Shown here: piece after piece, positions 95 through 6,909 of the stretch | Layout: the number at the start of each line of letters is the position of its first letter | Numbering within the stretch: position 1 is the stretch's first letter | Source: Deltaproteobacteria bacterium | GTDB taxonomy: Bacteria > Desulfobacterota_B > Binatia > Bin18 | NCBI GenBank assembly: GCA_012271025.1 | Contig: JAAXHF010000549.1 | Location: 1 to 23,946, forward strand | Direction of reading: 5' to 3' | DNA: 23,946 bases | Position numbers and translations under genes: made by a program | The notes under the pieces: model-generated | Told to the model about the DNA's origin: nothing | Database searches by the model: none | Seen by the model: the letters and a program-made list of their open reading frames with translations, nothing else

Positions 95-484
95 ATGCGA
101 GCCTCGACCAGTCGGCCTCACCTGCCATTGCTCCGCTACAACAAATCTGAGATATACAAGCGCGTGTCTGTCCGGGAAAAACTGCGCCGCACCCTCAGCC
201 ATGCCTTCGCCCTGCCGGCCCATTCCGCGCCGCTGACGGCCGAGGAGCGCGCACTGCTGGAACACGTCGCCCAACGCCTCGCCCAGCGACGCCTGGAGGC
301 GCCGGCCATCCTGTTTCTGGAATCGGTCGGACCGCTCAATTTCATCGGCAGCCAGGTGTTGCACGGCCTGCGTCCGTTCCTGGAGCTGGTGTGCGACCCG
401 ACAGAGCTGGAACGCCTGGCCGTCCTGCTCGAACGCCGCGACAGCCTTGAGCAGCTCACCGCGCTGCTCTCCCACCGGGCATGA
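95..484 (+). CDS. Small uncharacterised protein, first gene of the GlmL-like cluster
   Basis: Function unknown. It encodes a soluble protein of up to 129 residues with no signal peptide or membrane segment, mostly predicted helical with many Leu, Arg and Glu residues. A recognisable core lies at FLESVGPLNFIGSQVLHG (about residues 74-91). The start is uncertain: the ATG at 95 has no Shine-Dalgarno sequence, and the first 23 residues are encoded by less GC-rich DNA and look non-conserved. An in-frame GTG at 164 (protein starting SVREKLRR) is a good alternative and would give 106 residues. The TGA stop overlaps the ATG of the ATPase gene (ATGA at 481-484), so translation of the two is probably coupled. 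This suggests that the small protein works with the ATPase, perhaps as a partner or adaptor; that role is an inference from position only. Confidence 0.65.
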   Translation: MRASTSRPHLPLLRYNKSEIYKRVSVREKLRRTLSHAFALPAHSAPLTAEERALLEHVAQRLAQRRLEAPAILFLESVGPLNFIGSQVLHGLRPFLELVCDPTELERLAVLLERRDSLEQLTALLSHRA

Positions 485-2283
485 ATCCGCACGACCTCAA
501 CGTCATCCTGGCCACCGACTGTGGCAGCACGACGACCAAAGCCATTCTGATCCAGAAGCGCGGCCGGGAATACCGCCAGACCCACCGCGGTGAAGCCCCG
601 ACAACGGTCGAAGCGCCCTTTGAGGATGTCACTCGTGGGGTCTTGAACGCCATTCAGGAGGTCGAAGACCTGTCCGGCCGGACGATCCTCGACGGCGAGC
701 GCATTCTCACCCCGGCCCGAGCCGAGACTGGGGTCGATATCTACGTCTCGACCAGCAGTGCCGGCGGCGGTCTCCAGCTGATGGTCGCCGGCGTGGTCAC
801 AAGCATGAGCGCCGAGAGCGCCCAGCGCTGCGCCCTGGGTGCCGGGGCGATTGTGATGGACAGTCTGGCCTCCAACGATGGGCGGCCCGGCTATGAGAAG
901 ATCGAGCGCATCCGCCATCTGCGCCCGGATATGATCCTGCTGGCCGGCGGCACGGACGGCGGCACAGTCTCCCACGTGGTTGAGATGGCCGAGTACATTG
1001 CGGCGGCTCAGCCGCGGCCACGCCTGGGTCTGGGCTACCAGCTGCCGATTGTGTATGCCGGCAACAGCGCGGTACGGGAGCAGATCCAGGATATTCTGGG
1101 CGACCAGGCGGCCCTGTCCATCACCGACAATATCCGGCCCGTTCTGGAGCGCGAAAACCTCATGCCGGCCCGGCACACGATCCACGACCTGTTCCTCGAA
1201 CACGTCATGGCCCAAGCGCCGGGCTATGAGCGGCTGATTGACTGGACCGGCGCGCCGATTATCCCGACGCCGGCGGCCGTCGGAATGATCATCGAGACCC
1301 TGGCCCGCCAGACCCAACTGAACGTCATCGGGGTCGATATCGGCGGGGCCACCACCGATGTCTTCTCGGTCTTTCGGACCATCTTCAACCGGACCGTCAG
1401 CGCCAATCTGGGCATGAGCTATAGCGTGGCCAACGTGCTGGCCGAGGCCGGCCTGGACCAGGTCCGACGCTGGCTGCCGTTCGCGTGTGATGAGCAAGAC
1501 CTGCGCAACCAGATCAAAAACAAGATGATCCGGCCGACGACTATTCCACAAACCGTGAGGGACCTGCAGATCGAGCAGGCGCTCGCCCGCGAGGCGCTGC
1601 GTCTGGCCCTGGAGCACCACAAACAGCTGGCGGTAGAACTCAAGGGCGTTCAGCAGGAACGCTCGGTGTCGGACGCCTTTGCCCAGACCGCCTCGGGCCA
1701 GAGCCTGGTAGACATGCTGGCCTTGGACCTGATCATCGGCAGCGGCGGCAGCCTGTCCCACGCCCCGCGCCGGGTCCAGGCCATGCTGATGCTGATCGAT
1801 GCCTACGAGCCGCTCGGCATCACCCGGCTGGCGGTCGATAGTATCTTCATGATGCCCCACCTCGGGGTGTTGTCCACCGTCCATGAACAGGCGGCGACCG
1901 AGGTGTTGCTCAAGGACTGTTTGATCCCACTCGGCACCTGCGTTGCCCCGAGCGGTCGCGGAAAAGTCGGCCAGCCGTGTTTCTCCTACCGTCTCGTCCA
2001 GCCCGACGGGCAGACCCTTGACGGCAGCCTGAGCTGCGGCAGCCTGGAGCGGCTCAGCCTGGCCGACGGCCGTGAAGCGCGGCTCGAACTCAAGCCCAGG
2101 CGGGGCTTTGACTTTGGGGCCGGTCCGGGCAAGGCCCTCAGCGCTTCAGTCGTGGGCGGGACCGTCGGCCTCGTGCTCGACGCCCGAGGCCGACCGCTCA
2201 GCCTCGCTCCAGACGAGGCCGGCCGGACCGCCCAGCTCCGAGCCTGGCAAACCGCGCTCGACCTGTATCCCGATTCGGACTGA
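481..2283 (+). CDS. GlmL/MutL-family ASKHA ATPase, 600 residues
   Basis: This belongs to the family of the glutamate mutase accessory protein GlmL (MutL), which has the actin/Hsp70/sugar-kinase ATPase fold. Phosphate-1 motif TDCGSTTTKA lies near residues 12-21, phosphate-2 motif GVDIGGATTDV near 284-294, and a glycine-rich adenosine-type motif IIGSGGSLSHAP near 418-429. The clostridial GlmL family is usually about 460 residues, so this form is longer, with a beta-rich C-terminal part. In characterised glutamate mutase operons GlmL sits between the GlmS and GlmE subunits and is thought to protect or reactivate the B12 enzyme. Neither subunit is in this window; the neighbours are membrane proteins instead, so the usual annotation of methylaspartate mutase accessory protein is probably misleading here. 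It overlaps the upstream stop by ATGA, and the next gene begins 3 bases after its stop. No membrane segments are seen, so it is cytosolic. Confidence 0.85.
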   Translation: MNPHDLNVILATDCGSTTTKAILIQKRGREYRQTHRGEAPTTVEAPFEDVTRGVLNAIQEVEDLSGRTILDGERILTPARAETGVDIYVSTSSAGGGLQLMVAGVVTSMSAESAQRCALGAGAIVMDSLASNDGRPGYEKIERIRHLRPDMILLAGGTDGGTVSHVVEMAEYIAAAQPRPRLGLGYQLPIVYAGNSAVREQIQDILGDQAALSITDNIRPVLERENLMPARHTIHDLFLEHVMAQAPGYERLIDWTGAPIIPTPAAVGMIIETLARQTQLNVIGVDIGGATTDVFSVFRTIFNRTVSANLGMSYSVANVLAEAGLDQVRRWLPFACDEQDLRNQIKNKMIRPTTIPQTVRDLQIEQALAREALRLALEHHKQLAVELKGVQQERSVSDAFAQTASGQSLVDMLALDLIIGSGGSLSHAPRRVQAMLMLIDAYEPLGITRLAVDSIFMMPHLGVLSTVHEQAATEVLLKDCLIPLGTCVAPSGRGKVGQPCFSYRLVQPDGQTLDGSLSCGSLERLSLADGREARLELKPRRGFDFGAGPGKALSASVVGGTVGLVLDARGRPLSLAPDEAGRTAQLRAWQTALDLYPDSD

Positions 2284-6154: not shown

Positions 6155-6909
6155 ATCCCCAGTCGGTCAGTAGCGAAATCCTGCTCGGCGCCTGGGCGGC
6201 CAGCCTGCTGAGTCTCTTCATCTACAGTTTTCTGTACAAGGACAACCCGCTGTTCAAGCTGGCCGAGCATATTTTTGTCGGTGTCTCGGTCGGCTATGTG
6301 CTGACCATTACCTATCACGAGGTGATGCTCAAAAAGCTGTACGTGCCGCTGGTCGAGCAGGCCGACTGGTTGTTACTGATCGCCGCCGGGCTGGGTCTGT
6401 TCATGCTGGCGCGTCTGGTGCCGGCCTGGGCCTGGCTGAGCCGGATTGCGTTTGCCTTTATCCTGGGCATCAGTTCGGGGGTGGCCATCCCCAGATTTCT
6501 GTCCTCGTTTGTCCTGCAACAGGTCCAGGGCACCCTCACACCGCTGGTGTCGGTCGGACCCGACGGCTGGGTGTTTGGTCTGGCCGAGTTGAACGCCGGC
6601 CTGATCCTGGTCGGGGTGGTGAGTGTGCTGTTCTATTTTTTCTTCTCGGTCGAGCACGGGCCGGGCACGCGGTATGTGGCGCGCACCGGCATGTACTTCC
6701 TGATGGTCTCCTTTGGCGCGGCCTTCGGCTATACGGTCATGGCCCGCATGTCGCTGCTGATCGGCCGCTTTGACGAGCTGTTGGGCTACGCCTCGCCCGC
6801 CTACGGCTATGCCAGCCCGATTGCGCTGGTCGGGGTGGTGGCCGGCCTGGTGTGGTGGGAACGTCGACGGGCCGGCCGTGGTTCGCGGGGGGACTATTCC
6901 GCGGGCTGA
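6151..6909 (+). CDS. Polytopic inner-membrane protein, about 7 TM, last gene of the cluster
   Basis: Function unknown; 252 residues from the ATG at 6151. That start is preferred over an in-frame ATG at 6091 because it forms an ATGA overlap with the upstream stop and removes a charged, unlikely N-terminal extension. About seven hydrophobic segments can be seen, for example [53 protein letters not shown], a segment around [49 protein letters not shown] and [14 protein letters not shown]. The C-terminal tail ([10 protein letters not shown]) is basic, hence probably cytoplasmic. It ends the plus-strand cluster and overlaps the tail-to-tail rplS gene by 16 bases, so the two transcripts converge and no terminator fits between them. 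Confidence 0.8.

Follow-up and report, generated by a model that had tools for sequence, protein, structure and literature searches.

A seven-gene operon of a MutL-family ATPase and a DUF6754 membrane set in Binatia and other bacteria

The operon and its products

The stretch of DNA analysed here, hereafter the window, is a contig of 23,946 nucleotides (JAAXHF010000549.1, assembly GCA_012271025.1) from a deltaproteobacterial genome assigned to the Binatia. Its subject is a group of seven plus-strand open reading frames (ORFs), g1 to g7, which span positions 95-6909 as a tight operon. A preliminary description, made from the sequence letters, had proposed this operon, and all seven ORFs are present with every junction as claimed: g1 and g2 overlap in an ATGA (481-484), 3 bases separate g2 from g3, g3 and g4 overlap by 14 bases provided that g4 starts at ATG 3431 (a second in-frame ATG lies upstream at 3398), gaps of 6 and 3 bases follow between g4 and g5 and between g5 and g6, and g6 and g7 share another ATGA (6151-6154). 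The arrangement is beyond chance, because gene content and order recur in many loci.

Only two of the products exceed a Pfam cut-off. The g2 protein (481..2283, 600 residues) is an ASKHA ATPase of the MutL family (PF13941, E 7.7e-129, residues 9-480), in which the ASKHA motifs DIGGATTD and GSGG are retained, making the use of ATP likely; some 120 residues (480-600) extend past the MutL domain. The g4 protein (3431..4657, or from the alternative start at 3398) is a clear member of DUF6754 (PF20539, E 1.8e-111), a family for which the Pfam entry names no function. From hydropathy and charge, g4 is predicted to begin with a signal peptide, followed by an external Fn3-like part, one transmembrane (TM) segment, the cytoplasmic DUF6754 domain and a last TM segment; alignments reveal high conservation of the cytoplasmic domain. 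A metagenome-assembled genome (MAG) labelled Desulfurellaceae encodes a protein with 95% identity to g4.

Two further products are soluble. The small g1 protein (95..484, 129 residues), recognised in 38 of the 80 loci compared below, is the least conserved of the set and has its conserved core around the motif PxxxFLESxxPLNFxGSQxLHxLxP. The g3 protein (2287..3444, 385 residues) combines a barrel-sandwich-like N-terminal part with a middle domain and a KOW-like end. Its Pfam matches are confined to barrel-sandwich families and all fall below the cut-off; the likeness to the RnfC/NqrA proteins consists of a weak RnfC_N match (19.4 bits), which stays under the 25.6 bits required, and no other Rnf or Nqr family occurs in g1-g7.

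The remaining three products are predicted membrane proteins, and, like g1, they match no Pfam family at E 0.1. Six TM segments are predicted by hydropathy for g5 (4664..5302, 212 residues) and six or seven for g7 (6151..6909, 252 residues counted from ATG 6151), which has conserved YKDN and EH loops. The g6 protein (5306..6154, 282 residues) is predicted to hold an external domain between two TM segments, and in this domain D63, E71, D121, W186 and E233 are invariant among 37 sequences. Conservation in g5 and g7 together reaches 90% or more at 16 charged or polar residues (D, E, K, R, H, N, Q). Rough TM boundaries place 15 of the 16 in loops, where they would be better suited to docking than to forming a charged route across the membrane.

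Profile searches of the PDB covered g2 (as a single sequence), g3, g4, g6 and g7. The g4 profile found a match through its Fn3-like part only (E 0.0012), g3 gave weak KOW-type matches (E 0.03-0.75), g6 a single match (E 0.079), and g7 and g2 none. No support was found (hhalign probability 0.2%) for a suspicion, formed by eye, that the cytoplasmic domain of g4 shares its ancestry with the external domain of g6, and profile comparison revealed no relationship between g5 and g7. The identification of g7 as signal peptidase II was rejected at 16.6 bits versus 73.95 required, and so was an anti-phage defence system, for which the PADLOC models gave two chance-level matches only (E 0.02 and E 0.042).

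Conservation of the gene set and identity of its ATPase

DUF6754 was used as bait, and the best 80 of at least 583 matches were kept, a sample weighted toward near relatives. By their record titles, the 80 loci belong to Nitrospira/Nitrospirae, Planctomycetota (among them the anammox genera Brocadia, Kuenenia and Scalindua), Elusimicrobia, Latescibacterota, Poribacteria, Edwardsbacteria, Methylomirabilota and Binatia. In every one of the 77 loci where all four genes were recognised, g4-g5-g6-g7 lie in one order on one strand; 75 of these were found by best hit, and two more, L067 and L080, carry two complete tandem sets each. Of the other three, L004 and L025 are cut off by the end of their contig, and L006 has its g5 stretch joined to g6 in a single ORF. 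The middle of this apparent fusion is out of frame, and it is probably an assembly error; as the ORF was included in the g5 profile, that profile weakly matches g6 ORFs. The pair g2 and g3 is found upstream on the same strand in 43 of the 80 loci; among the 37 loci without it, the upstream sequence extends over 5 kb or more in 22 and over less than 3 kb in 15.

Some loci carry other genes between g4 and g7 (e.g., L002, L046 and L054). In L002 (2961-6758), genes for a UvrD-like helicase and a DUF2290 protein separate g5 from g6, and in L046 (7982-11800) 23S rRNA-intervening-sequence proteins and an IS200-like transposase gene stand between system genes. The tandem sets of L067 and L080 lie amid an Fe-S protein and FAD-dependent oxidoreductases (two L067 genes assigned with Pfam, the others by eye). 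One record, L001, is titled as a Klebsiella pneumoniae MAG, very probably a mislabel; its g4 is 66% identical to that of the window. A search for DUF6754 on plasmids gave no match.

The ATPase and the DUF6754 protein occur together at the level of whole genomes as well. MutL over cut-off and DUF6754 are found in the identical 31 of 148 genomes of Nitrospirota, in the identical 12 of 119 of Elusimicrobiota and in 10 of 10 of the Edwardsbacteria phylum. Among these 277 genomes, 53 thus contain both families, 224 neither and none just one (two genomes, G158 and G279, have MutL matches below the cut-off only). The independent events are fewer than these counts, because the genomes are related and the samples include the centre genomes, which were picked for having the system. 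Of 49 system genomes, 48 have a single g3 gene, and 25 other genomes have none; the gene was missed in G019, perhaps an incomplete MAG, and in the relatives G017 and G018 g3 and g2 lie on different contigs. The genes hence co-occur in other lineages, as the preliminary description had expected of a separate system, both as conserved loci across several phyla and as paired presence in three.

Linkage between the soluble and the membrane genes is looser. In 20 genomes hand-picked from the 80 loci there is one MutL gene each (in two pieces in G015) and one to four DUF6754 genes. In 13 of these genomes, g2 lies elsewhere than directly before g4. Seven of these 13 keep g1, g2 and g3 together (G001, G006, G007, G010, G011, G012 and G013), three have only one of g1 and g3 beside g2 (G005, G009 and G014), and three, the Poribacteria G017, G018 and G019, have neither.

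In Planctomycetota, MutL exceeds the cut-off in 80 of 294 genomes. Among 20 regions hand-picked around this gene, all seven genes are found in eight and g3 stands beside g2 in 15; four (L189, L198, L207 and L208) hold no other system gene near g2. Genes for ExbB, ExbD, ExbD and TatD directly precede g1-g7 in four of the regions (L193, 4426-8670; L190, L194 and L195); the upstream stretch of L193 also contains lspA and a TPR protein, and in L196 TatD stands alone upstream (7764-8570). Queries with ExbB and ExbD found nothing in the other 16 regions and nothing in the 80 loci.

Databases name the g2 proteins glutamate mutase L or methylaspartate mutase. The window g2 nevertheless stays under all three curated cut-offs of the GlmL family (NF040745, NF040744 and TIGR01319), with 229.7 bits versus 475 required for GlmL, 215.3 versus 600 for the ornithine-pathway relative and 166.1 versus 204.05 for the GlmL family; judged by these scores, “glutamate mutase L” is a misnomer for g2. 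The protein shares the MutL domain and the ASKHA motifs with the reactivating factors of glutamate mutase and ornithine aminomutase, and differs from them in phylogeny, length and gene context. In a tree, 55 system g2 proteins form one clade versus five GlmL/OrnL-type references (FastTree support 0.82, long branch). These references measure 461-467 residues (MAFFT scatters their last residues to g2 positions 530-545), and a GlmL is expected to have about 460 and to end with the MutL domain, which leaves the C-terminal extension as a feature of g2. Ten GlmL-type genes from plasmid records are 26-32% identical to g2, and their matches stop at g2 residues 427-479.

The reference glmL gene sits between glmS and glmE in all four annotated records that were opened (a fifth record is unannotated), whereas the partner of g2 is the membrane set. 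Among the window proteins that were scanned, Pfam recognised no glutamate mutase family, and glmS and glmE do not adjoin g2, which bears out the earlier remark that no mutase subunit is present here. On the second point that could have refuted the preliminary description, the ATPase likewise does not track with the mutase in the genomes tested: glutamate mutase subunit E (PF06368) exceeds the cut-off in none of the 20 related system genomes, with one match below it in G013. Rfam searches of the window and 14 loci found no match, and thus no cobalamin riboswitch or other known RNA there. On scores, clade, absence of subunit E and the context of the reference genes, the identity of g2 as GlmL was rejected.

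Edwardsbacteria paralogues, a proposed mechanism and its alternatives

The ten Edwardsbacteria genomes contain one MutL gene each (in G288 in pieces on two contigs), one g3 each and two to five DUF6754 genes each, 32 in total. Nine of the ten carry one complete g4-g7 set within the V-type ATPase operon, where the genes run G-I-K-E-C-[g4 g5 g6 g7]-F, and in six of these nine regions the A gene is seen further on. The remaining genome, G292, which lay outside the regions compared, carries two DUF6754 genes on a single contig. Subunits G, I, E, C and A were assigned with Pfam in L110 and L111 and transferred elsewhere by similarity, and K and F by reading of the sequence. The g1-g7 products of the window themselves match no V-type ATPase family in Pfam. 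Two extra small genes of no known family stand between g7 and F in seven of the nine regions; a roadblock-like nature of these genes was considered and finds no support in Pfam. According to the g4 tree, the slot in the V-type ATPase operon is occupied by two paralogue lineages, one of them in seven genomes; in G290 and G291 it holds the lineage that elsewhere is linked to g1-g3. Two paralogue lineages in the same slot argue for a working link between g4-g7 and the V-type ATPase in this phylum.

The explanation that we put first, tentatively and at less than even confidence, is an inner-membrane system that stands on its own, apart from glutamate mutase, and consists of two modules, of which the ATPase module would maintain or remodel client membrane complexes. 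The preliminary description had suggested an ATP-driven inner-membrane complex, an idea which the proposal specifies and which, as a reading of sequences, keeps its conditional form. The first module would be a soluble ATPase unit, g1-g2-g3, and the second a membrane unit, g4-g5-g6-g7, with the DUF6754 domain of g4 and the loops of g5 and g7 as a cytoplasmic docking face and the g6 domain and the Fn3-like part of g4 as an external face. The two modules would form a complex, in which ATP hydrolysis by g2 would change, via g3 and g1, the state of the membrane unit, much as reactivases of the GlmL and EutA type act on their enzymes; such a repair-type ATPase is the closest functional analogy. The membrane unit would hold or sense a client membrane complex, the maintenance, assembly or activity of which could thereby become dependent on ATP; in Edwardsbacteria, the V-type ATPase is probably one such client.

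Maintenance or remodelling is our first choice, ahead of a transporter, an accessory of ion machines and a sensor in this order, because g2 belongs to a reactivase family and the membrane units of Edwardsbacteria adjoin different partners. The single g2 per genome facing 32 DUF6754 genes over the ten genomes speaks for it as well, as do the constant g4-g7 order, the co-occurrence of g2 and g3 with DUF6754, the g1-g2-g3 groups kept in seven of the 13 unlinked genomes, the set inside the V-type ATPase operon, the retained ASKHA motifs and the loop position of the conserved charges. In its widest form, the proposal describes a new class of membrane machine with an ASKHA-type ATPase, in which one soluble g1-g2-g3 motor, common to several interchangeable g4-g7 units, would power their work, either transport or a forced remodelling of other membrane complexes that include the V-type ATPase, in many uncultured and some cultured bacteria. 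This wider form may hold, with odds we would place somewhat short of even.

Several observations weigh against the proposal. The reactivase analogy is drawn from the family membership of g2. In six of the 13 unlinked genomes g2 lacks an adjoining g1, g3 or both, and in five of the 20 planctomycete regions g1 is the most that is found near it. When the ORFs of the 80 loci were clustered, no further gene widely common across phyla emerged. Moreover, the embedding in the V-type ATPase operon may represent only two events, the Edwardsbacteria genomes being relatives. Subunit C of the V-type ATPase (PF01992) occurs in six of 51 system genomes versus nine of 29 others, and queries with subunits I, E, C and A match nothing in the 80 loci. 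The V-type ATPase can therefore not be the general client, and as a general partner it was rejected, since 45 of the 51 system genomes are without subunit C.

A new primary transporter, in which g1-g3 form an energising ATPase module for several g4-g7 permeation units and the external domain of g6 binds the substrate, is an unlikely alternative, albeit the least unlikely one. In group II energy-coupling factor (ECF) transporters, one energising module serves several membrane units, and the single g2 and g3 for up to five DUF6754 genes in Edwardsbacteria resemble this layout, a likeness in gene number and not a membership: g1-g7 lack the P-loop ATPase of ATP-binding cassette (ABC) and ECF transporters, as judged by Pfam. 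The polytopic g5 and g7 and the tethered external domain of g6 would also suit a transporter. However, g4-g7 match no Pfam transporter family, the PDB profile searches of g4, g6 and g7 returned nothing usable, and the conserved charges lie mostly in loops. Furthermore, we know of no transporter that is powered by an ASKHA ATPase.

Less probable still is a device that assists, assembles or controls ion-motive machines, namely the V-type ATPase in Edwardsbacteria and ExbB/ExbD-type channels in some planctomycetes. The operon embedding in nine of ten genomes by two paralogue lineages, and the ExbB, ExbD, ExbD and TatD genes upstream of g1-g7 in four of 20 planctomycete regions, would be accounted for by such a device. 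Against it stand the counts for subunit C, the missing ExbB/ExbD matches in the remaining 16 regions and the 80 loci, and the missing V-type ATPase matches in the 80 loci, where F-type operons had no queries of their own. An envelope sensor, whose g6 and g4 external domains read a periplasmic signal that the cytoplasmic DUF6754 domain relays to the ATPase module, would make sense of the invariant acids in g6 and the high conservation of the DUF6754 domain; no regulator, kinase or sigma-factor family appeared among the selected neighbours scanned with Pfam, and we consider a sensor improbable. Finally, an ordinary GlmL reactivating a B12-dependent glutamate mutase amid incidental neighbours, as the database names and the Pfam MutL membership would have it, has next to no likelihood in view of the score for GlmL, the lack of subunit E and of a cobalamin riboswitch, and the exceptionless co-occurrence of g2 with DUF6754 over 277 genomes.

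The maintenance proposal concerns a system that is not described in the literature searched, and the earlier designation of the operon as an undescribed system is supported in so far as nothing on the seven-gene context was found there. Open-licence PubMed Central full text contained no paper naming DUF6754 or PF13941. Open-licence listings on GlmL, MutL and glutamate or methylaspartate mutase in Chloroflexi, anammox bacteria and Nitrospira held nothing on this system, nor did those on the V-type ATPase of Edwardsbacteria. By term search, an essential-gene paper on Planctopirus limnophila (PMC10632474) is without the terms glutamate mutase, methylaspartate, fibronectin and MutL and is silent on the system.

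The gene order is kept in Nitrospirota, Planctomycetota (anammox genera and Gimesia-type), Elusimicrobiota, Latescibacterota, Poribacteria, Edwardsbacteria, Methylomirabilota and Binatia, which makes a basic function likely. New here are the single g2 and g3 facing two to five DUF6754 genes in Edwardsbacteria, the g4-g7 set inside the V-type ATPase operon and the DUF6754 protein in Gimesia. A DUF6754 protein is found in the named species Gimesia maris, G. panareensis, G. fumaroli, G. alba, G. algae and Maioricimonas rarisocia, all of them cultured. In L193 the seven genes are found side by side, and its DUF6754 protein shares 98% identity with that of Gimesia panareensis; bench tests are thus possible. 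The layout of one ATPase to many membrane units, together with the link to the V-type ATPase operon, turns an anonymous DUF into a hypothesis testable in cultured bacteria.

Neighbouring genes and minor observations

A Memo-like gene (PF01875; identified with Pfam on L042 only, 3766-5046) is present in 33 of the 80 loci, of the Nitrospirota type, and often follows g7. An MscS-type mechanosensitive channel gene occurs in ten of the 80 loci, chiefly in Elusimicrobia (L072, 14320-15387; L057, 13552-15360; and eight others), and in L057 it is found a short way downstream of g7. In L045 (4075-6009), the g6 external domain carries a long insert, which by eye appears HEAT-repeat-like.

The planctomycete region L208 (2854-13690) contains a different MutL-family gene (470 residues) with a PrpF-like gene, an aconitase, an amidohydrolase and a sigma-54 activator. 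This stretch is without g3-g7 and without a glutamate mutase among the proteins scanned, and perhaps represents another unassigned MutL context; the genome has three MutL matches over the cut-off and one below.

In the window, the genes downstream of the operon on the other strand are ordinary housekeeping genes by Pfam (rplS, trmD, rimM and ffh). Positions 12096-17283 hold a cytochrome c biogenesis cluster, which consists of ccmF, ccmH, one gene without Pfam family, an ABC ATPase gene and a second cytochrome c assembly protein. A Phd/YefM-like antitoxin (below the cut-off) and a PIN-domain protein at 17617-18272 probably form a toxin-antitoxin pair.

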